From a virus: DNA of 36,634 nt. The notes beneath the pieces were generated by a model. That model saw only the letters and a program-made list of their open reading frames with translations, was not told the DNA's origin and searched no databases. The stretch is taken from positions 1 to 36,634 of IMG/VR virus record IMGVR_UViG_3300045927_000052; one strand, written 5' to 3'. Of the stretch, positions 2,703-31,398 are shown piece after piece; within the stretch, counting starts at the first letter, position 1, and each line of letters opens with the position of its first letter. A program made the translations under genes and the position numbers.

Positions 2703-3260
2703 TCAGGACTCGGTGATGTTCTGCGGGTCGTCGGTGAGCTCGGTGTAGAGCAGACCGTTCGCGTCCGGGTAGACGGTGATCGTCAGCTCGTACCCGGTCA
2801 TCTCGGAGTCGGACGACACGACGTCACCCACTGAGGTGACCTCACCGCGAGCGACGCACAACCGGCGAGTGATGTCCCCGTCGACGGTCTCGATCACCCA
2901 CGCCCTGACGTTCGGCTCGGTCGGCACGTAGTGGCCGCGGGTCACGTTCGCGCCGGCGATCGTCACCGTCGAGCCGGGGTTGACGACCGAGAAGACGCGG
3001 CCGTTGTCCTCGAGCGCGGTGACGGTGAAGGTGCGCTTGTGCTTGGCGCGGGTGGTGCGCACGAGGATGCCGCCCCACGCGTAGTGGTCGGTCTGCTCTT
3101 CCTCGCGGGATTCGGTCATCCCGTCGTCGGAGAGAAGCCCGAGCGCCTCGAACGCCGGGTCGAGAGCCGCGGCGGGGGTGGTCGGCATCGTGGAGCCTTC
3201 CGGCGCGTGGTACACGTCGGCGTTGATCCAGATGCGTGGGTTGTCAACATCACCGGCCAT
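2703..3260 (-). CDS. Major tail (tube) protein
   Basis: This 185-aa protein builds the tail tube. The sequence is beta-rich: an N-terminal MAGDVDNPRIWINADVYHAP segment, a central KHKRTFTVTALEDN strand pair, and a C-terminal GYELTITVYPDANG segment typical of actinophage tube proteins. It has a strong ribosome site (AGGAGG, 8 nt from the ATG), as expected for an abundant structural protein, and a strong hairpin follows it. It lies between the tail terminator and the tail chaperones, which supports the call. No C-terminal Ig-like extension is present. Confidence 0.88.
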   Translation of the reverse strand: MAGDVDNPRIWINADVYHAPEGSTMPTTPAAALDPAFEALGLLSDDGMTESREEEQTDHYAWGGILVRTTRAKHKRTFTVTALEDNGRVFSVVNPGSTVTIAGANVTRGHYVPTEPNVRAWVIETVDGDITRRLCVARGEVTSVGDVVSSDSEMTGYELTITVYPDANGLLYTELTDDPQNITES

Positions 3261-3741: not shown

Positions 3742-3990
3742 TCAGCCCCTCCCCGCATCGATGGCTCTGCTGAGCGTGCGATTCTCCGCCTCGGCGCGCA
3801 TCGCCTCGAACGTCGCCGTGCGCACCGACGCCCGGGCACGGACACGGCCTACGGCGAGTTCGACCTCATGACCGTCGCCGGCCGCCGTCGCGATCCGGGA
3901 AGCCCGGCCGCGCAGATCGCCCTGCACTTCAGACGATCGGAGCAGCTGCCGCACCCCGGACCGGTTCAGCACGATCCGCACCTTCGCCAT
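3742..3990 (-). CDS. HK97 gp10-like neck / minor head-tail protein
   Basis: An 82-aa basic protein (MAKVRIVLNRSGVRQLLRSS) with the Arg-rich helix and RASVRTATFEA strand typical of small gp10-like neck proteins. ATG at 3990 has GGGAG about 7 nt upstream. Start and ribosome site both lie inside the 3' end of the preceding glycosyltransferase gene, overlapping it by 62 bases. In related phages this gene directly follows the head-tail stopper, so the five sugar/methyl genes have been placed between the two. It is followed two bases later by the tail terminator gene. Confidence 0.72.
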   Translation of the reverse strand: MAKVRIVLNRSGVRQLLRSSEVQGDLRGRASRIATAAGDGHEVELAVGRVRARASVRTATFEAMRAEAENRTLSRAIDAGRG

Positions 3991-5686
3991 CGAGCATCTC
4001 CCGCGCCGTCGCAGCCATCGCCGTCATGCGTTCATGGTTGGCCTGCCGGTAGTGGATGAACAGGTTCTTGCTCTCGCGGCTGCCGGCGTTGCGGGTCAGC
4101 CGCTGCGCGGGCTGGTGGAACAGATGGATCAGCGGCCCGTCGTTCCGACCGGGCGGCCCGACGAGCAGGTGCAGCGCAAGCGACCAGGCAGAGTCCTCTT
4201 GACCCCAGCCGACGAAGCGGGGGTCGAGCGGCACCCGTTGCCACACGGAGCGGGTGATGGCGGTGATGCCGCCGCCCTGGTTGGCGTGGTGCTGCTCCAT
4301 GAACCGCCGCGGCTCTTCGCCGCCGGCGAGGAGGACGGCGGTGGATGCTTCGTCGAGGCGGTGCACCTGGCCGTGTGGCTTGGCCCATCCGAACCGCAGT
4401 GCCTGAGCGGCAGCGATGCGCACCGTCTGCGGGTCGCAGTAGACGTCGGCGTCGGCGATGACGAACAGGTCGCCGGTCGCCTGCAGGGCAGCGGTTTCGA
4501 CGGCTCGGGCTTTCACCCAGTCGCCTTCGCAGCGTCCGACGATCACCTGCCAGTCCGGGAAGTTCGTTCGCCACCAGTCGGTCACCCAGTCGAGCAGCCG
4601 GACCCGTTGCGGGTCGTCGCCGCCGAACGGAATCAGCACACTGACTCTTGGCCCGGCCGGGCGAGGCGGTCGGGTAGCGGCCCGGTCGAGCTCGTCGAGC
4701 CACACCGGTAGGAGCCGCTCCCACGAGTTCAGCCGCGCCCACTGGCGGGACATCTTCTGACACACCGCGAGCGACGAGGGGGCGGCGAGCCGGTCCATGA
4801 GCTTGGCCAGCGCAGTGGTGGATGGTTCGGCGACGTCGACGGTGCCGCCGGGCATGTCGACCTGGTCGAAGCGGTCGACGGGGATCTTCAACCCGGGCCA
4901 CGTGTCGTTCGGTTCGCAGTCGGTGACGATGACGGCGAGGCCGGCGGCCATCGCCTCCTGGGCCGGGAGGCACAGTCCGCCGTAGCGGCGGGGCATGACG
5001 AGCACGTCAGCGTCGTCGTAGAGCCGCCAGTAGTCGGGGGTCTCGAACCGGTGAACGTCGACGGTGACGTGGAGCGGTGTGTGCTTGCCGAGCGGGATGG
5101 TCCGGTCCTGTGTGGCGAACCGGACGTGGACGGGCTGCTCGAGGTGGTGGAGAGCGGCGGCAGCGATGCGGACGCCGTTTCGGTCGCGCATCGCTGTGAC
5201 ACCGCCGACGTGCAGGAACCGGGTAGGCCCGTCGGCTGGTGTCGTGGGGGTGAACCGGTCGACGGCGACGGGCATCGGAACGACGCGTGTGTCGGACGGG
5301 AGCAGGGGGAGCCGCCAGTCGGTCGCCGCCCACCAGGTGATGTCGGGGATCGCCGCCCGGTCGGGGCGCAGCATCTCCGGGTTGACGTGGCAGACGATCC
5401 CGGCCCGACCCCAGCTGGGCATCCGCCAGTCGTAGAGCGTTTCGGCGGTGTAGACGACGTCGAGCCCGGACAGCCACCGCTTCACCGTCTGGTCGTCGAG
5501 GACGTCACGGGCGGGCCAGTCAACCGACGTCGTGTCCCAATCGCGGTACCGGTTGGGATGCTCCGACACCCGGCACGGGCGGGGGCGGATGAGCAGCACC
5601 CGCTCCGGGTTCAGATGCCGGCAGGCTTCCCACGTCTGAATGCCGAGGCCACGGTTCGTGGACTGGGCGATGACTCCGATCTTCAC
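3929..5686 (-). CDS. Bifunctional glycosyltransferase: GT-B (GT4-like) plus GT-A domain
   Basis: This 585-aa protein starts at GTG 5686 (GTGA overlap with the upstream gene); the frame continues upstream but only as a shadow of that gene. Residues 1-335 look like a GT-B retaining transferase: VKIGVIAQSTNRG start, FLHVGG strand near 157, and RRYGGLCLPAQEAMAAGL at 233-250, which holds the nucleotide-sugar-binding glutamates. Residues 347-530 look like a GT-A transferase: VSVLIPFGGDD, ADADVYCD (DxD-type metal site, 411-418) and FVGWGQEDSAWSLAL (491-505), the acceptor/base motif of galactosyltransferase-like GT2/GT27 enzymes. It probably adds two sugars in succession. It is the last gene of the cassette, and its final 20 residues are encoded within the next gene. 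Confidence 0.85.
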   Translation of the reverse strand: MKIGVIAQSTNRGLGIQTWEACRHLNPERVLLIRPRPCRVSEHPNRYRDWDTTSVDWPARDVLDDQTVKRWLSGLDVVYTAETLYDWRMPSWGRAGIVCHVNPEMLRPDRAAIPDITWWAATDWRLPLLPSDTRVVPMPVAVDRFTPTTPADGPTRFLHVGGVTAMRDRNGVRIAAAALHHLEQPVHVRFATQDRTIPLGKHTPLHVTVDVHRFETPDYWRLYDDADVLVMPRRYGGLCLPAQEAMAAGLAVIVTDCEPNDTWPGLKIPVDRFDQVDMPGGTVDVAEPSTTALAKLMDRLAAPSSLAVCQKMSRQWARLNSWERLLPVWLDELDRAATRPPRPAGPRVSVLIPFGGDDPQRVRLLDWVTDWWRTNFPDWQVIVGRCEGDWVKARAVETAALQATGDLFVIADADVYCDPQTVRIAAAQALRFGWAKPHGQVHRLDEASTAVLLAGGEEPRRFMEQHHANQGGGITAITRSVWQRVPLDPRFVGWGQEDSAWSLALHLLVGPPGRNDGPLIHLFHQPAQRLTRNAGSRESKNLFIHYRQANHERMTAMAATAREMLDGEGADRAEPVRGAAAAPIV

Positions 5687-7197
5687 GTGAACCTGCACTC
5701 GAACTTCGGGTCGTCGCCGCGCCCGTCGAGATGCCAGCTGCGCTTCAGGTTCTCCCCCGGTGCGTAGAGGCCGATGCGATGCGCGTGCCAGCCTTCGACC
5801 TGGGCGACCGAGTGCATCTTGTCCTCGATCATCGTGCGCCCCGATGTGGGGAAGTGGTCGTCGAGGATCCGCCGGTAGTAGCCGGCGGCAGCGAGGTGGG
5901 GGCGTTGCGACCATTGGGTTGTGCGCAGGATCGGCGCCCCAGCGAAGTCGATCGGTGTCTTGTCGACCATGAGCGGGCGGTGCGACCCGACGATCACCGC
6001 TTCGTGATGCAACCGGATCACGTCGAGCTGGTCGCCGACGGCGTCGAAGAGGGCGGGCCAGTCGATGAGCCAGTCGGTGACGAGCGGCGTGTCGTGCTCG
6101 ACGAACAGCACCGCCGGGGTGTCGACGTGACCGAGCGTGACGCGGGTCATGTTCGCCTGATGCTGGAAGTCGTCGAACACGATCGGGGTGACACCCTGCC
6201 ATCGCCATTGGCAGAGCCACAGCAGCCTGCGCAGATATGCCTCGTACCGGCCGCGGTGGTGTTCCTGCTCGGTGCGGACCCCGTCGCACATGATGATGAT
6301 GTCGGCGTCGGGGAGCCAGTGTCGGACGGAGGCGACGGTGGTCTCGATGATCGACGTGTCCGGATGGGTCGGGATCGGCGACGTCGGGATGAGCACCGTG
6401 ACGGGGCGCTGGTCGCTGCAGCCGACGTCGTCGAGGAGCTGGCGGCGGAGGGTGCGCTTGTGCAGCTGCCACCATGCGAAGCAGCGGTTCGCGTTGGCCG
6501 GCCATCGGTCGAGCTCGACGGCCAGGACGTCGGGCAGGTTGGCCCAGTCGTCGATGATCGGGAATGGCACCTGCCCGTACGTGAATGGCCAGTAGCCATC
6601 GACTCCGGCCGGGCATCGGCCGTCGGCGATCGGCACCACTCCGGCCTCGAGCGCCTCCCACACCCGGAACGTGTCCGGCGTCTTCGGCCCGGACGGGCAC
6701 GGCGCGGCCTTGACCGCCGCCAACGTGGCCAAGTAGCGGTCTCTGGCCGCGCCTTGGGTGAAGCCGGGCGTTTCGACGACGTTCGCCGGGTCGACGGCCC
6801 GCATCGCCGCGACGGCCTCTTGGCGGCGGCGGTGGTTGACCTGACCGGCGAACCACCAGTCCCCCGTCGGGTCGACGGGTCCGTCGCCCTGCAGCTGGCC
6901 GAGCAGCGCCCTGGTGTCGGCCGGCCAGCCGAGCGGCCAGAACCGGTCATGGCCGGCGTGGATGTCGGGTCGGGGGGTCTGGATCCACACGAGCGGAGCG
7001 CGCAGCTCGCGCCACGGGAAGATTGATTCCTCGTCCGACGTGAGGATCGCCACGTCCGCCGGGTCGACGTCGCCGGGGGTGTGGTAGCGGGCCGGGACGA
7101 CGACCGTCTGGCGGGGCGTCTCAGCCGGGAGCATCTCGTCGAGGAGGGCCTGGTCCCAGCAGAGCGGATGAGCGTCGAGCCAGCGGACCGGGATCAT
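5683..7197 (-). CDS. Bifunctional glycosyltransferase: exostosin-like plus GT-A domain
   Basis: A 504-aa protein from ATG 7197 (ATGA overlap). The N-terminal part, to about residue 255, has the exostosin/GT47-like signature FRVWEALEAGVVPIADG (177-193). The C-terminal part begins with a GT-A nucleotide-binding strand, VTVLIPTSPIPTHP (266-279), and has FVEHDTPLV (365-373) at the place of the metal-binding DxD motif. A Trp/His-rich acceptor region (ENLKRSWHLDG) is near the end. The domain calls come from motif recognition; donor and acceptor are unknown. With its neighbour it gives the cassette four separate transferase domains in two proteins. Confidence 0.75.
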   Translation of the reverse strand: MIPVRWLDAHPLCWDQALLDEMLPAETPRQTVVVPARYHTPGDVDPADVAILTSDEESIFPWRELRAPLVWIQTPRPDIHAGHDRFWPLGWPADTRALLGQLQGDGPVDPTGDWWFAGQVNHRRRQEAVAAMRAVDPANVVETPGFTQGAARDRYLATLAAVKAAPCPSGPKTPDTFRVWEALEAGVVPIADGRCPAGVDGYWPFTYGQVPFPIIDDWANLPDVLAVELDRWPANANRCFAWWQLHKRTLRRQLLDDVGCSDQRPVTVLIPTSPIPTHPDTSIIETTVASVRHWLPDADIIIMCDGVRTEQEHHRGRYEAYLRRLLWLCQWRWQGVTPIVFDDFQHQANMTRVTLGHVDTPAVLFVEHDTPLVTDWLIDWPALFDAVGDQLDVIRLHHEAVIVGSHRPLMVDKTPIDFAGAPILRTTQWSQRPHLAAAGYYRRILDDHFPTSGRTMIEDKMHSVAQVEGWHAHRIGLYAPGENLKRSWHLDGRGDDPKFECRFT

Positions 7198-7772
7198 CGC
7201 TTCACCGCGACGATCCAACGCCATTCGCTGTAGCAGTCGTTGAGGAGGTGGGTGATCGGTGCGAGCCGGGCGGCGTGACACCAGTCGAATACGACGTCAC
7301 GGTTGACCTGGTGCGACGTCGGGCCGTGCTCGTCACCTTCGACGTACTGGGCTACTAGCCGTGCACCGGGGACGAGACGCTGCCCGATCGACTTGATCGC
7401 CACCGCCCCTTCGCCGTGGGTGAGGTGTTGGAGCACGGTGACGGTGTAGGCGCCGACGAACCACACGTCCGGGATGACCGGATCCACCACAGCAGGAACT
7501 AGACGCTCGATGAACCTGGCCCGGATCGCGTCAGCGGGTTCCACGCCGCGAATGTCGAAGCCGGGCCGCAACCGCGCTACGGCGGCCGTGAGACGACCGG
7601 TACCGCACCCGAAGTCCAGCACCGGGCCTTCGCGCACCTCGAGCTTGTTGGTCACGATCTCGGCGACCCGGTCGACGTCGTATGGCGGGACCCCTGCCGT
7701 GTTGTCGTCGATGGCGTCACCTTCGAGACTGCGCCACCAATCGAGCCCGGTCAGCACGGCGAGAAGAGCCAA
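7194..7772 (-). CDS. Class I SAM-dependent methyltransferase
   Basis: A 192-aa protein with a clear SAM-binding motif I, VLDFGCGTGRL at residues 51-61, followed by the acidic-loop strand DIRGVEPADA (about 73-82) and a YTVTVLQHLTHGE motif matching post-motif II of small-molecule methyltransferases. The start could be ATG 7772 or GTG 7757; the latter gives the short overlap usual here. Lying among glycosyltransferases, it probably O-methylates a sugar or the glycan end rather than DNA. There is no DNA-methyltransferase catalytic motif (no NPPY and no PC-type motif). Confidence 0.82.
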   Translation of the reverse strand: MALLAVLTGLDWWRSLEGDAIDDNTAGVPPYDVDRVAEIVTNKLEVREGPVLDFGCGTGRLTAAVARLRPGFDIRGVEPADAIRARFIERLVPAVVDPVIPDVWFVGAYTVTVLQHLTHGEGAVAIKSIGQRLVPGARLVAQYVEGDEHGPTSHQVNRDVVFDWCHAARLAPITHLLNDCYSEWRWIVAVKR

Positions 7773-8458
7773 TGCTGCTCGTGGTCAGTGCCGAGATGCT
7801 CCCCGTCGTAGCCACGCTCCGCCATGTAGGCGAGCAGCTCTTCCGGGGTGGCGGCGTAGTCGCGGGCCATCAGATCCGGGTGAATCGACACCCACACCAG
7901 CGGGCGACGCATCCGCAGCACCATGTCTGCGCCGCGCAGCACGTCAAGCTCGGCACCTTCGACGTCGATCGTGATCGCGTCCGGCATCGCCGTCCGGGCC
8001 AGCCGATCGATGGTCGTCACCGGACATTCGGTCAGGTGCTTCGGTTCGTGCAGGTACGTGTATGACATGGCGCCCCATTCGCCGCCGATCGAACAGTCAG
8101 GCCACCCACCGACGTTGATCTCGGCTTCGCCGGCACCCCACTGGCCGGCGTGCCCGACCAGCGACCGGACGGTGGCGAGCGGCGCCGCCAGAGCGTTGTG
8201 CTCCCACGTGAGCCGGATGTTGCCCCACAGCGGCCCGGTCGGTTCGATCAGCACCATGTGCTCGGCGCCGACGAACGATGCGTAGATCGCGGAGATCCAG
8301 CCGTGCTCGGCGCCGACGTCGAACAGGGTCATCCCGTGCCGGAGATGGTGCTCCATCGACGCGAACCGTTCGACTTCCCAGCGGGAGATCGCATCCCAGT
8401 CGGCGATGCTGTCCGGCAGGATCAGCCGCCACCGGCCGTTCACGACGGCGGGTTTCAC
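7751..8458 (-). CDS. FkbM-family methyltransferase
   Basis: A 235-aa protein starting at GTG 8458 in a GTGA overlap. SAM motif I is MTLFDVGAEHGWISAIY (43-59), with MVLIEPTGPLWGNI as the second strand. The FkbM hallmark DAITIDVEGAELDVLRGA is at 160-177. FkbM enzymes O-methylate hydroxyls on sugars and polyketides. In a glycosyltransferase cassette the likely target is a sugar of the glycan being built, which would cap or mask it. Two different methyltransferases in one cassette suggest two methylated positions. Confidence 0.88.
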   Translation of the reverse strand: MKPAVVNGRWRLILPDSIADWDAISRWEVERFASMEHHLRHGMTLFDVGAEHGWISAIYASFVGAEHMVLIEPTGPLWGNIRLTWEHNALAAPLATVRSLVGHAGQWGAGEAEINVGGWPDCSIGGEWGAMSYTYLHEPKHLTECPVTTIDRLARTAMPDAITIDVEGAELDVLRGADMVLRMRRPLVWVSIHPDLMARDYAATPEELLAYMAERGYDGEHLGTDHEQHWLFSPC

Positions 8459-9423
8459 AGCATGCCCCGCTGCTCGAGGACGGCGACGAGCTGACGCATC
8501 CTCACCTCGTACGTGTGGCCGGCGAGCACATGGCGGCGGCCGAGCTCGGCGACCCGCTCTCGTGTGGAGTCGTAGCGGAGCGACCCGTCGATCAGGTCAC
8601 GCAGGCTCGACCAGTCACCGACGTGCCACGTCAGCAGATGCTGCCCGTCGCTGTAGAGGCGGCCGTCGGTGACACCTTCGACGTGCGGGTGGATGAGGAA
8701 CCCGCCACGTCCGAGCGTCTCCGGGATCCGATCACTTGCGTACCTGGTCTGGCCGCCGGCGAGACAGGAGTCGCCGACGAGCACCTTCACCGTCGCGTAC
8801 AGGTCGCGCAGCGCCTCGCCTCGAACAGCTGGCTGCCCCTTGGCTGGCCAGAACCGGCAGCGGGTGCCGTACGTCTCACGCAGCCACCGGACGAGCTGCC
8901 CGCGGTGGGGCCATTCGCGGTGATAGTGGCCCTGCCACGATCCGACGAACGCGACGTCGGAAGAGAAGTCCTCGCGGAACGTGCCGGGTTCGCACTCGGC
9001 CTCTGAGACGCCGGGCGGCATCCACACGTGCTCGATCCCGACTTCGGCCCATTGTGCGTTGTGTCCGCCGTCGGCCGTCGCCAGCAGATCGACGGTGAAG
9101 AACGGCGACTCGCGGATGCGATGCTCCCGATCCAATCCCCACCAGCGATCCAGATGGGTGCCGATGATCGGGACGCCGCGGTTTCGGATCTCTTTCAGGA
9201 AGCGGCGCTGGTCGTCGTAGGTGACGGGCGGCGCGTAGTCGTAGGTGGTTACCCACTGCACGAGCTGGACGTCGTCGGGGATCCGTTCGGCCATGTGTCG
9301 CCACGCCGACGGCGCCTCTTGGATGCGGGCCACGTCGTGGCCGTTGGCTTCCCAAGCGTTCGCCAGGTGTGTCTCGGTCGAATGGGGCACGGAGTGGTTG
9401 CCGATCAGGGCGACGTTCAACAT
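8455..9423 (-). CDS. CgeB-like GT-B glycosyltransferase
   Basis: A 322-aa protein, first gene of the cassette, with GGAG 7 nt before ATG 9423. It starts MLNVALIGNHSVPHSTE, a GT-B N-terminal strand and loop. SSDVAFVGSWQGHYHREW (154-171) and ASDRIPETLGRGGFLIHP (229-246) match the second Rossmann domain of CgeB-like and GT4 transferases, where the RxxE segment binds the nucleotide sugar. It is a good candidate for adding the first sugar onto a protein, since it leads the operon. The acceptor is not visible from sequence. Confidence 0.8.
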   Translation of the reverse strand: MLNVALIGNHSVPHSTETHLANAWEANGHDVARIQEAPSAWRHMAERIPDDVQLVQWVTTYDYAPPVTYDDQRRFLKEIRNRGVPIIGTHLDRWWGLDREHRIRESPFFTVDLLATADGGHNAQWAEVGIEHVWMPPGVSEAECEPGTFREDFSSDVAFVGSWQGHYHREWPHRGQLVRWLRETYGTRCRFWPAKGQPAVRGEALRDLYATVKVLVGDSCLAGGQTRYASDRIPETLGRGGFLIHPHVEGVTDGRLYSDGQHLLTWHVGDWSSLRDLIDGSLRYDSTRERVAELGRRHVLAGHTYEVRMRQLVAVLEQRGML

Positions 9424-9441: not shown

Positions 9442-9774
9442 TCAGCCGTCGACGGTGCGCAGCGCGACCTCGAGGTGATGAGCGGCGGTCGTCGTCCACA
9501 TCGACCCAGGGACACCGTCGACCTCGAACGTCCGCCCGTCCCACACGACCCGGTCGCCGGCGGCGATCGCAGTGGCCGGATCCATGAACGCCACCCAGCC
9601 AGTGACCACGACCTGGCGGCCGTCGGCGTGCTGCTCACCGGGCAGGGTCCGCTGCTGCACGAACGCCCGCACCTCCGCCTCGGACGGCGCCGACCAGTCC
9701 GGTTCGCTGTTGCCGTACCGGTCGGACGACGACGACGCGCGTTGCACGGTCACCGTGTGCGGAAGGGTGATCAT
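9442..9774 (-). CDS. Head-tail stopper / joining protein
   Basis: A 110-aa protein from ATG 9774 (ATGA overlap with the adaptor gene). It is a small beta-barrel-type sequence: MITLPHTVTVQRASSSSDRY, then VVVTGWVAFMDPATAIAAGD, RVVWDGRTFEVDGVPGS and a C-terminal HHLEVALRTVDG. This is the pattern of SPP1 gp16-like stoppers and related head-tail joining proteins of actinophages. It follows the adaptor, as expected. The next structural gene in normal synteny would be the neck protein, now separated by the 5.5-kb sugar/methyl cassette. Confidence 0.8.
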   Translation of the reverse strand: MITLPHTVTVQRASSSSDRYGNSEPDWSAPSEAEVRAFVQQRTLPGEQHADGRQVVVTGWVAFMDPATAIAAGDRVVWDGRTFEVDGVPGSMWTTTAAHHLEVALRTVDG

Positions 9775-10448: not shown

Positions 10449-11399
10449 TCAGGACGTCTGGATGTCCGTCAACTGCACGAACGCGTCGACGTCGTTCACG
10501 AGCCAGCCGTACTCGGCCTCCGCCCGAATCGCGACGAGGTTGTTCTCCCACAGCGACGTGAGCGACCCGTTGATCGTCACGGTCGCCTCGGTCGACACGT
10601 CGTAGCTGATGCCTCCGACGACACCCCACGCGCACTGCGAGAAGTCGCCGCCGAACCCGCACGTGATCCCGTACGACAGCTCGCCCATCGCGGCGGGCCG
10701 ACCGAGCAGCCGACCGTTCTGCACACCGGCGCCGATGTTGACCGTCCCGTCGGGGGTCTCCATCGCCGTCCAAATCGGGCGGCCGGTCGTGTCGACGGCG
10801 TCGAGGAGGATGCCCTCCACCTTCGGGTCGAGCACCCAGCCGGTGAGCCGGTAGCGGCGACCGACCGCGTCGCTGTCCTGCACGAGGAGCTTCAGAGCGT
10901 CGACGAGATCGTTGTGGACGCCGCCGGTGTTTTGCGCCGACGTGCCGAACTCGACGTCCTTCGTCGTCGCGGCGAGGTTCGTCGAGAACGGGCCACCGGA
11001 GGGGGTGCCGTCGGGGCCGGCGTCGTACAGCGCCGCGTAGTCGAACGCGACGGCGAACGCCTCCGCGATCTGCGGGCGGAGCAGGTTCATGTAGTTGCCG
11101 GGGTTGGCGCGCACGACCTCCGCCGAGACGACCGCGATGGCGGCGAGCTTCTGCGGGGTCATCGTCTTCAGCGTCATCGACCCGGACGACGCCGGCTTGG
11201 CTGCGGCCTCAGCGACCCAGCCGGCCGACATGCGTCCGGTGACGACCGGGATCGATTCGCCGTTCGCGCCGAGCGGGATCTGAGGGGCGACGCGTTGCAC
11301 GACCGACATGCGGGCGGCACGTTCGAAGATGGGGGCAGCGATGTTCGCCGGCAGGAAGCCGGAGAAGTCGCCGGTGACGGTTGCGGCGGAAATCGCCAT
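10449..11399 (-). CDS. Major capsid protein, HK97 fold
   Basis: A 316-aa protein with features of HK97-fold capsids without a fused delta domain: MAISAATVTGDFSGFLPANI start, SVVQRVAPQIPLGANGESIP, the KPASSGSMTLKTMTPQKLAAI beta-hinge region, the long spine helix around LLRPQIAEAFAVAFDYAAL, and a C-terminal NLVAIRAEAEYGWLVND strand. It has a near-perfect ribosome site (TAAGGAG, 8 nt from ATG). The separate scaffold gene upstream explains the short N-terminus. It is flanked by scaffold and head-tail adaptor genes. Confidence 0.92.
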   Translation of the reverse strand: MAISAATVTGDFSGFLPANIAAPIFERAARMSVVQRVAPQIPLGANGESIPVVTGRMSAGWVAEAAAKPASSGSMTLKTMTPQKLAAIAVVSAEVVRANPGNYMNLLRPQIAEAFAVAFDYAALYDAGPDGTPSGGPFSTNLAATTKDVEFGTSAQNTGGVHNDLVDALKLLVQDSDAVGRRYRLTGWVLDPKVEGILLDAVDTTGRPIWTAMETPDGTVNIGAGVQNGRLLGRPAAMGELSYGITCGFGGDFSQCAWGVVGGISYDVSTEATVTINGSLTSLWENNLVAIRAEAEYGWLVNDVDAFVQLTDIQTS

Positions 11400-26488: not shown

Positions 26489-26643
26489 GTCGTCCTCCGG
26501 TCTCGTCGTTGCCATCCCCACCGCACCACCGCCGGGGCGGCCACCATGACGGCGAGGGCGGCGGCGACGATGACGGCCAGCCATCGCCACACGAACGCGG
26601 CGAGGGCGACGGCACCGATGTAGAAGATGAGAAACGGGGTCAC
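26485..26643 (-). CDS. 52-aa two-helix membrane protein
   Basis: GTG 26643 overlaps the methyltransferase stop (GTGA), and its stop overlaps the next ATG (ATGA), so it exactly fills the space between them. The peptide has two hydrophobic stretches (PFLIFYIGAVALAAFVW and LAVIVAAALAVMVAAPAVV) with a short turn containing one Arg (WRW), and a basic tail (RRDRRTT). Size and topology fit small holins or other phage membrane peptides, but its place in the early operon argues against a late lysis role. It might instead act in exclusion. Confidence 0.68.
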   Translation of the reverse strand: MTPFLIFYIGAVALAAFVWRWLAVIVAAALAVMVAAPAVVRWGWQRRDRRTT

Positions 26644-27881
26644 GCCACGGCCTCGAGGTGGGCGGCGAGCCGGGTGAGGATCGCGGCGGCGACGGGGGGG
26701 CAGACGGCGTTGCCGATCTGGCGGAACCGTGAGGTCTTGGTGCCGGTGACGGGGAAGTCGGGGGGGAAGCCTTGCAACACGAGGGCTTGTTCAACGGTGA
26801 GCTTGACGGAGCCGACGTGTTGCGATGGTCTGCCGTCGCCGTGGTGCTCAGGTCGGAACAGTTGACTGTCACCCATGACAACGGTGGCGGGCCGCTCCCA
26901 TGCCCACCCGCCAGCCTGTGTCGTGATCTGCGGCGCGGGCCTGGAGTCGGGGAACCGGTAGTAGTAATCGCTTCCGTCATCGGCTCGCGCCGGTTGCACG
27001 CCTTCGCTGTCGCGTGGTCGGTCGTGACGTGCCGAGTTGTGACGCAATGTCCATCCGTAGTTGCCGTTGTCGGCGGATGCGGTGATGGTCATGGCGGGCT
27101 GGTCCTGGTGTCGCCATGCCCCGTTGGCTTGCGTCTCCCGCAACACGAATCCGGGAGACGCGTGACCGCCGCCTTCACCGGTGCGAAGCGTGAACGCCGG
27201 CTCGTCGTCTCGGCGGGTCGGCCGTTCGCCGTACCGTTCGACCATGCCTGCTCCCCGTGGGCTGTACGCCTCGAACCCCGACCATCCCAACGCGTCGGCC
27301 ATCGACATCCACGGCAACAGACCCGTACCGAACAGTCCCGCATCGGTTGCTCGTGCCGGTTCGCCCGACACGTACCGTTGATGGGTCGGCTCTGGGGGGA
27401 CGGCGGGGCCGTTGAGGCGGGCGATCAGGTAGGCCCGCTGCCGGGTCTGCGGTACCCCGTACTGCTCGGCCGACAAGATGCCGCACCATGTTGAGTAGCC
27501 GAGCCGGTCGAGCTCTAGGGCGGTCATCCGCCAGATCGGTTCCACGTCGGGCACCTGCTCCAACGCGACCGCCCGCGGGCGGAGGGCCTCGATGAAGCGG
27601 AGCGGTTGCCAGACGAGGTGTCCGGTGGTGCCGTTGAGCCCGGCGCGTTTACCGGCGCGGGAGAAGTCGGTACAGGGAGGCGACCCGACGAGCACGTCTA
27701 CGGCACCGAACCGGGCCGGGTCGAGGGTGGCGATGTCGGCCCGGATGGTGGCGTGACCGGCGGTGTGGTGGGAGCGGCAGGCGTCTCGGTCCATGTCGAC
27801 ACCGATCACCGTCCAGCCGAGCTGGGCGAGGGCGAGCGACCAGCCGCCCATTCCGCAGAACAGGTCAAGCGCCGCGGTCAC
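26640..27881 (-). CDS. C5-cytosine DNA methyltransferase
   Basis: A 413-aa protein from GTG 27881. Conserved motifs in order: I LDLFCGMGGWSLAL (5-18), IV GSPPCTDFS with catalytic Cys70, VI ALEQVPDV (usual ENV is EQV here), VIII QTRQRAYLI, a long variable target-recognition region (about 180-340) and IX/X RFRQIGNAVCPPVA. No restriction enzyme gene is next to it, so it is probably a solitary phage methyltransferase that protects phage DNA from host restriction or mimics host methylation. The target site cannot be read from sequence. Confidence 0.93.
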   Translation of the reverse strand: MTAALDLFCGMGGWSLALAQLGWTVIGVDMDRDACRSHHTAGHATIRADIATLDPARFGAVDVLVGSPPCTDFSRAGKRAGLNGTTGHLVWQPLRFIEALRPRAVALEQVPDVEPIWRMTALELDRLGYSTWCGILSAEQYGVPQTRQRAYLIARLNGPAVPPEPTHQRYVSGEPARATDAGLFGTGLLPWMSMADALGWSGFEAYSPRGAGMVERYGERPTRRDDEPAFTLRTGEGGGHASPGFVLRETQANGAWRHQDQPAMTITASADNGNYGWTLRHNSARHDRPRDSEGVQPARADDGSDYYYRFPDSRPAPQITTQAGGWAWERPATVVMGDSQLFRPEHHGDGRPSQHVGSVKLTVEQALVLQGFPPDFPVTGTKTSRFRQIGNAVCPPVAAAILTRLAAHLEAVA

Positions 27882-30324: not shown

Positions 30325-31398
30325 GTGGCGTCGATTGATCGCACCCCGTCGGGGAAGTGGCGGGCGAGGTGGCGGCCGACACCGGGCGGCCCCCAGAGGT
30401 CGAAGTCGTTCACTCGGAAGCTGGACGCGCAGCGGTTCCTGACCCGGATCCAGGCGGACATCGACGGCGGCCGGTACGTCGACCCACGGGCCGGCCAGGT
30501 CACGCTCGACGTGTTCTGGCGGCAGTGGTCGACGGTGCAGTCGTGGCGCAACGGCACCAGGGAGACGCAGACGGCGGTGTACGTGAACCGGATCGCCCCG
30601 ACGTTCGCTGACCGGCCGATGGCGTCGGTGCGCCGCTCCGACATCCAGGCGTGGCTGGCGACATTGACTCCTCGGCTGGCGACGTCGACGGTGGAGGGCA
30701 CGTTCCGGCTGTTGGCGGCCCTGTTCCGGGCAGCGCAACAGGACGGGATGATCGGCCGCTCCCCCTGCGAAGGGGTCCGCCTACCCCGCCGTGAGGGCAG
30801 GCTGTCGGAGCCGTTGACCGTGGCCGACGTCGAAGCCATTGCGGCGGCGATCCGCCCCGACCTCCGCGGTGCCGTCCTGTTCGCCGCCATGTCCGGGCTA
30901 CGCCAGGGCGAGCTGTTCGGGTTGACCGAGGATCGGGTGCGGTGGCTCAAGCGTGAGGTCGTGGTGGACCGGCAGCTCCTCACGTTGGTCGGTCAGGATC
31001 TCCGCCTCGGGCCGTGCAAGACGTCCCGGTCGGTGCGGGTCGTGCCGCTGGCCGATCGGGCCGTCGAGGTGTTGGCGGAGCACCTCGAGCGGCACCCGCC
31101 CGATCACGGTTGGGTGTTCCACCGGGACGGGCGACCGTGGGGGAGGTCGCCGGCGGCGGAGGCGATCCGCCAGGCGGGCGGCCGGTGGCACGACCTCAGA
31201 CGTCACGCCGCGTCGGTGTTGATCCGTGACGGCGCGTCGGTTACGGCGGTGGCGGCGGCGTTGGGGCATTCACCGGCGGAGTGTCTGCGGACGTATGCGG
31301 GGTGGTGGCCGGCGGAGGGTGACGTGGTGCGAGACGCGATGACGAAGGCATGGGGGGCGGCGCCCGTGTCCCGCCTGAGTCACGACACCCCCGGCTGA
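30325..31398 (+). CDS. int: Tyrosine-family integrase
   Basis: A 357-aa recombinase from GTG 30325. An N-terminal arm-binding region (residues 1-60, SIDRTPSGKWRARWRPTPGG) and SAM-like core-binding domain (about 65-150) precede the catalytic domain with Arg193 (SGLRQGEL), Lys232 (CKTSRS), His289-x-x-Arg292 (HDLRRH), His315 (LGHS) and Tyr324 (LRTYAGWWP). All catalytic residues are present. A TAGCCT hexamer 6 nt before the GTG suggests a leaderless start. It integrates phage DNA at a host attB; the attP is probably in adjacent non-coding DNA. Confidence 0.95.
   Translation: MASIDRTPSGKWRARWRPTPGGPQRSKSFTRKLDAQRFLTRIQADIDGGRYVDPRAGQVTLDVFWRQWSTVQSWRNGTRETQTAVYVNRIAPTFADRPMASVRRSDIQAWLATLTPRLATSTVEGTFRLLAALFRAAQQDGMIGRSPCEGVRLPRREGRLSEPLTVADVEAIAAAIRPDLRGAVLFAAMSGLRQGELFGLTEDRVRWLKREVVVDRQLLTLVGQDLRLGPCKTSRSVRVVPLADRAVEVLAEHLERHPPDHGWVFHRDGRPWGRSPAAEAIRQAGGRWHDLRRHAASVLIRDGASVTAVAAALGHSPAECLRTYAGWWPAEGDVVRDAMTKAWGAAPVSRLSHDTPG

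Follow-up and report, generated by a model that had tools for sequence, protein, structure and literature searches.

A predicted virion-glycosylation cassette in the head-tail module of a soil actinobacterial phage, and a terminal serine on capsid and tail tube

Introduction

Virion glycosylation has been demonstrated in a handful of mycobacteriophages. Three reports that summarise the original work describe C-terminal glycans on the capsid and tail tube of Che8, Corndog and Myrna, for which the phages encode the glycosyltransferases (GTs), and capsid and tail tube are likewise reported as glycosylated for Che8 and cluster O (PMC12363180, PMC12619734, PMC11600133). Cassettes combining GTs with methyltransferases (MTs) are also already known from the head modules of mycobacteriophages of clusters O and J, since Firecracker has one between portal and protease and Courthouse has one after the capsid gene. 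The subject here is a five-gene GT and MT cassette (9423-3929, minus strand) in IMG/VR virus record IMGVR_UViG_3300045927_000052, a linear 36.6-kb record of a soil actinobacterial phage that was analysed at its full length of 36,634 nucleotides (the window). Sequence comparison indicates, with a probability of roughly 0.8, that this cassette is a virion-glycosylation module, a larger variant of the known C-terminal glycosylation of virions.

The cassette and its homologues

The late genes run, from right to left, as terminase, portal, capsid, adaptor, stopper, the five cassette genes, neck, terminator (PHROG, 5e-31) and tail tube. The cassette composition proposed in the initial annotation, a CgeB-like GT, an FkbM MT, a class I MT and two double GTs between stopper and neck, was recovered in full and with the same boundaries:

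9442..9774, minus strand: head-tail stopper (Hc1), upstream flank of the cassette (phrog_501, 4e-17; PF05521)
8455..9423, minus strand: GT1, CgeB-like / Glyco_trans_1_2 glycosyltransferase, 322 amino acids (PF13524, 45 bits, cut-off 25; phrog_28745, 7e-37)
7751..8458, minus strand: FkbM-family methyltransferase, 235 amino acids, GTG start (TIGR01444, 55.8 bits, cut-off 37.7; PF05050, 46 bits)
7194..7772, minus strand: class I S-adenosylmethionine (SAM)-dependent methyltransferase, 192 amino acids, TTG start assumed (PF05175, 23.4 bits, cut-off 23; PF13489, 3e-5)
5683..7197, minus strand: P4, predicted fused double GT with an exostosin/RXYLT1-like N-terminal half and a GT-A-like C-terminal half, 504 amino acids (RXYLT1_C, E 9e-6, just below cut-off; C-terminal half by alignment A6)
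3929..5686, minus strand: P5, predicted fusion of a GT4 and a GT7/polypeptide-GalNAc-transferase-like GT, 585 amino acids, GTG start (PF13692, 40.6 bits, for the GT4 half; C-terminal half GT2/GT7-like)
3742..3990, minus strand: neck protein, downstream flank of the cassette (phrog_387, 5e-26)

In all, five GT domains are predicted from Pfam and PHROG matches and from homology. Judged by their homologues, P4 and P5 are fusions, because in L160 and L161, two distant phages, each half of P4 has a gene of its own, the two lying side by side, and the GT4 half of P5 is a stand-alone gene in L158, L160 and L161. GT1 and the FkbM MT have homologues of 57% and 60% identity, respectively, in the relative L007, and GT1 is 29% identical to gp34 (gp, gene product) of Streptomyces phage Dryad. 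The class I MT matched several MT families, mostly under their cut-offs, and contains the SAM motif VLDFGCGTG. No match to the cassette region was found by megablast in the phage collection, and tblastn returned no isolate-phage relatives of P4 or of the FkbM MT, the latter with an approximate query that had three wrong letters at its start. A single-sequence AF2 (AlphaFold2) model of P4 was poor (predicted local distance difference test score, pLDDT, 37.7) and was not used.

The genes are chained, as the initial annotation had noted, by short overlaps of 4-22 bp: 4 bp at GT1/FkbM, MT/P4 and P4/P5, and 22 bp at FkbM/MT, provided that the TTG start is correct. GT1 is separated from the stopper gene by 18 bp. 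Because of these overlaps, co-expression of the cassette with the virion genes is likely. The P5/neck overlap, 62 bp in another reading frame (3929-3990), exceeds the remaining junctions.

The C-terminal half of P5 is homologous to Che8 gp109 (profile A5, E 3e-24; pairwise 27% identity, 1e-8). Profile A5 also matched Firecracker (gp35), Babsiella, Courthouse (gp17), Marvin and phiGD20-1; the five control phages (ArV2, Boohoo, Drake94, Giles and Spartoi) gave no match. This half contains a DxD-type motif (DADVYC) and the motif FVGWGQED, and its AF2 model (pLDDT 85.7) matches the folds of beta-1,4-galactosyltransferase and polypeptide GalNAc-transferase (pp-GalNAc-T).

Terminal serine on capsid and tail tube

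Capsid and tail tube, for which glycosylation is reported in Che8, are also the two proteins that end in serine in phages with such cassettes. Their counterparts in the window, which are the predicted acceptors by this rule, are:

10449..11399, minus strand: major capsid protein, C-terminus LTDIQTS (PF05065, 86 bits; PHROG, 6e-56)
2703..3260, minus strand: tail tube protein, C-terminus PQNITES (placed by its position after the terminator and by relatives at the same place)

Capsids of cassette-bearing loci end in [GST]S (DIQTS in the window, ENGGS in L023, NLTGS in L059), and those of relatives with an empty site end in NAA, TP, NAV, HTA and similar. The rule was first noticed in a capsid set with seven cassette loci, of which two are copies of the window phage; new loci were examined afterwards. 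When every capsid relative whose site could be determined was counted, including those from which the rule arose, [GST]S was found in 11/11 with a cassette versus 1/71 without. When loci were fetched by GT homology instead of by capsid, 29 of 30 tubes and 9 of 10 capsids were serine-terminated, counts that include the window phage and three earlier contigs. The combined tail-tube table gave a serine end in 31/32 loci with a cassette versus 1/49 without (Fisher, 4e-20); the window tube (NITES), for example, contrasts with that of the cassette-free L086 (AVVP). All these contigs are fragments, so that 'without cassette' means that inspection of the site, or of the contig searched, showed none.

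Neighbouring proteins of the same loci served as controls. A serine end was found in adaptors at 5/39 (13%) with a cassette versus 10/67 (15%) without, and in necks at 0/20 versus 1/30 (3%). The difference was mild for the stopper (22% versus 9%) and the terminator (31% versus 14%), and only the capsid (94% versus 13%) and the tube (97% versus 2%) stood out.

Among isolates chosen for the homology of their GTs to Che8 gp108 or the window GT1, 8/9 capsids and 9/9 tubes end in serine, with the following C-termini (capsid/tube):

Che8 KTGS/SDGS; Firecracker LVGS/KGDS; Babsiella ETAS/EDGS
Marvin PQGS/FGGS; Fryberger YAGS/EPAS; phiGD20-1 RAGS/IAGS
Yvonnetastic GTAS/AASS; Dryad SALS/TAGS; Courthouse GFGD/IGLS
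Controls: Boohoo VPTP/TEIP; Drake94 TNAA/VQTP; ArV2 LNAA/AQGT

The controls Giles (tube taken as gp15) and Spartoi are not serine-terminated either. Capsid families with no relation to one another (Che8, Firecracker, Babsiella, Marvin, Fryberger and Yvonnetastic) follow the rule, and it is this spread, together with the control proteins, that carries the argument from C-terminal sequences. The terminal serine, common to dozens of cassette phages, suggests the point of sugar attachment. A serine end was also found in the unrelated L161 phage (GC content 0.43; homologues of P4 and GT4), whose capsid, placed by PF05065, ends in GNVS and whose tube, placed by position and length only, ends in VNIS.

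An ideal natural comparison is offered by the near-sisters L023 and L092 (tail-tube branch lengths 0.07 and 0.06): L023 has a cassette, a capsid ending in ENGGS and a tube ending in VVNGGS, and the cassette-free L092 has VENGD and SLVATP. The capsids of L037 and L089 end in NGS and TGS; both short contigs stop before the site, and a cassette is predicted there.

Several points weigh against the reading as virion glycosylation at this serine. Related loci are not independent: on well-supported branches the tube tree provides five independent pairs, about 4.8 in the same direction and none in the opposite one (sign test, p 0.06 only), and the capsid tree provides only 3-4, three of them on such branches. 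There are also exceptions. L221 has a GT and neither its capsid nor its tube is serine-terminated, the Courthouse capsid ends in GD, the L121 capsid (end 1040) ends in AGS on a 5.1-kb fragment with no cassette seen, and the L075 tube is serine-terminated at a site without a cassette. In addition, no gp110-type GT was detected in the window record by profile A7.

An alternative explanation is that the serine signature reflects common descent or some other constraint, with the cassette glycosylating another virion protein, such as a tail fibre. Many of the loci are indeed related, the independent-pair sign tests fail to reach 0.05 on the most stringent trees, and the GT trio of Dryad comes immediately after a 3.6-kb gene with which the tail region ends. 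This alternative is nevertheless quite unlikely: the rule holds over unrelated capsid families and in two unrelated proteins at once, L023 and L092 differ exactly with the cassette, and the glycans of Che8 are reported at the capsid and tube C-termini.

The capsid-to-neck interval as a landing zone

The initial annotation held that phages normally have nothing at this site. This is true of most capsid relatives, as the stopper-neck gap is about 0 in nearly all those with both genes mappable, but GT cassettes occur in the capsid-to-neck interval of ten other capsid relatives and of many further phages. In the ten relatives the GT/MT cassettes occupy three positions:

Directly after the capsid: L056, L090
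Between adaptor and stopper: L108; L007 (GT after the adaptor, no stopper seen before the contig end)
After the stopper: L016, L023, L059, L102, L122, L130

The search for the same gene set in relatives, which the initial annotation had proposed, thus recovered the window type in L007 and cassettes of differing content elsewhere. Several of the short gene names below come from reading the sequences and not from profile searches:

Type A (GT1-FkbM-...-P4): window, L007
Type B (two to five other GTs; MT in L059, L130 and L108): L059, L130, L108, L090, L016, L122
Other: L023 (dehydrogenase-like, GT32-like, FkbM + GT25-like); L102 (GT4-like, GT7-like, GT32-like, MT-like); L056

A scan with the C-terminal GT domain of P5 (alignment A5) identified 80 viral loci. 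Where head-tail genes could be mapped, the gene with this domain lay ahead of or between adaptor, stopper and neck in 32/34 loci and after the tube in 2/34. Alignments of the terminator and of the full neck protein proved too variable to be used in scanning the collection. Because ten other capsid relatives carry GT/MT sets there or nearby, the capsid-to-neck interval of the head-tail module is, on these gene maps, a recurrent landing zone for sugar-building cassettes.

L075 and L076 have a 4.9-kb insert between capsid and adaptor that is structural-looking, with a long Ala-rich protein and, in L075, no recognisable GTs; the capsid ends in NAVS, the tube in DGVS, and a strong GT2 gene lies elsewhere on the contig (G044:1855-2142). 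A short BLAST match to GT1 in L075 overlaps the scaffold/capsid junction, shows no GT in six frames and was attributed to chance.

Comparison with described cassettes

Like the window phage, Che8 (cluster F1) has its own GTs (gp108-110), including the GT7-like enzyme homologous to the P5 C-terminal half, as well as an MT-like domain in gp108 (by homology to phage O-methyltransferases) and a serine-terminated capsid and tail tube, both ending in GS. Its genes, however, are outside the head module, at the genome's right end, and pairwise BLAST found among the three no counterpart of GT1, the FkbM MT, the class I MT or P4. Che8 also has the gp110-type GT that the window phage lacks. This GT25-like enzyme (Che8 gp110/Corndog gp38) is described as essential for capsid glycosylation, and Myrna's GT is reported in a different structural cluster (PMC12363180), so the gp110-type GT is not defining for the wider kind of virion glycosylation. 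Matches to profile A7 were found in Che8, Firecracker, Marvin, Fryberger, phiGD20-1, L023 and L056. The C-terminal half of P4 and the third GT of L059-type cassettes were each tested as a diverged Che8 gp110 and rejected. In the contractile-tail phage L072/L073, the capsid ends in VDIS, and in L073 it is preceded, at a distance of about 4 kb, by a GT25-like open reading frame (ORF) resembling Che8 gp110.

Other described cassettes are those of cluster O (Firecracker/Corndog), with an O-methyltransferase and three GT-like genes (Firecracker gp33-36), and of cluster J, in which an MT is accompanied by a GT7-like gene and one further gene (Courthouse gp15-17). Both share with the window a GT and MT cassette in the head module, a GT7-like enzyme and a serine-terminated tube, and Firecracker also a serine-terminated capsid. 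They differ in insertion point, in MT family, in having fewer GT domains and, in Firecracker, in the gp110-type GT. The novelty first ascribed to the window cassette is therefore partial: it is a new and larger variant of an arrangement that existing annotation shows for cluster O and that cluster J has as well. Two points go beyond the initial annotation, namely the predicted acceptor (the terminal serine of capsid and tube) and the recurrent use of the capsid-to-neck interval.

Dryad gp34-36 includes the closest isolate homologue of GT1 and, two genes on, an FkbM-like MT. Its tube (AGS) and capsid (ALS) end in serine as in the window; unlike in the window, the set follows the tail genes, and no homologue of the P5 C-terminal half was found in Dryad. 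P4 is shared with the metagenomic phages L160/L161 (GC content 0.43-0.45) and L158/L159/L162, the GT4 half of P5 with L158, L160 and L161 (where read), and GT1 was seen in L158 and L160. In contrast to the window, L160 and L161 have the set beside the terminase and the P4 halves as separate genes, and the virion proteins of these phages are unrelated to those of the window. The same GT set occurs beside terminase genes in L160, L161 and L242 (GC content 0.43-0.45). These low-GC phages suggest, from gene content, that virion glycosylation extends beyond actinobacterial phages.

The phage and alternative targets of the cassette

The window encodes a WhiB-like regulator, an integrase, repressor-like genes, RecT, an exonuclease, a DNA methyltransferase, a portal and a large terminase. 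Because of this content, and because the capsid relatives in named bacterial genomes are all from Actinomycetota, the phage is probably a temperate siphovirus of an actinobacterium. Two of these genes bear on alternative targets:

30325-31398: integrase
26640-27881: DNA methyltransferase-like gene, early region (PHROG, 1e-71)

GTs of temperate phages often modify the host surface. The cassette could accordingly have as its substrate the cell-wall glycans or glycolipids of a lysogen or an infected cell, as in superinfection exclusion by serotype-converting phages, and the integrase and repressor-like genes give the window phage the temperate look that this would suit. Against this, no cassette protein contains a transmembrane-like segment (highest 19-residue Kyte-Doolittle hydropathy 1.47), and hence the membrane flippase and polytopic membrane GT that are the hallmarks of gtr operons were not found among them. 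The genes also lie inside the late head-tail operon and not beside the integrase, and a host-surface target does not predict a serine rule specific to capsid and tube. Host-surface modification is thus improbable. Glycosylation of modified bases in the phage genome is very unlikely: GTs that modify phage DNA exist (cited in PMC12619734), and the window has the DNA methyltransferase-like gene, but the GT families are of protein or polysaccharide type, the P5 C-terminal half resembling beta-1,4-galactosyltransferase and pp-GalNAc-T, no base-hypermodification genes were found among 30 scanned window proteins (several ORFs fall outside the scan and the record may be incomplete), and a link to virion C-termini would not be expected.

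Proposed pathway and significance

Virion glycosylation is well supported by indirect evidence, namely the Che8 GT homology, the late-operon location and the C-terminal serine signature, all of which point to the virion as the predicted target. Modification of the capsid and tube of the window phage we infer, along with the sugars, their methylation, the initiating enzyme and any benefit. In the proposed pathway, the cassette would be expressed late, together with the capsid and tail proteins, and its GTs would link a sugar to the serine that ends the capsid (DIQTS) and the tail tube (NITES). With the gp110-type GT missing, a different enzyme must start the chain, and the GT7-like half of P5 is the candidate. 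The other GT domains would extend the chain, and one or both MTs would methylate sugar hydroxyls; a methyl-capped glycan is plausible from the gene content. That such a coat hides virions of the window phage from host or environmental recognition is speculation.

The balance leans, less firmly, towards a broader reading of these results together. Serine on capsid and tube would be a general mark of self-glycosylating phages, GT/MT cassettes of at least three unrelated make-ups would have entered the capsid-to-neck interval repeatedly and in many phages, the mark would occur also in a low-GC lineage probably outside Actinobacteria, and the window phage would use a non-gp110 initiator to build a longer, probably methylated glycan. 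If the serine mark is true, glycosylated phages could be recognised from sequence alone and the acceptor residue predicted, and the spread of coat glycosylation among phages would become a testable question. The gene maps also mark head-tail modules as a repeated landing zone for sugar-building genes.

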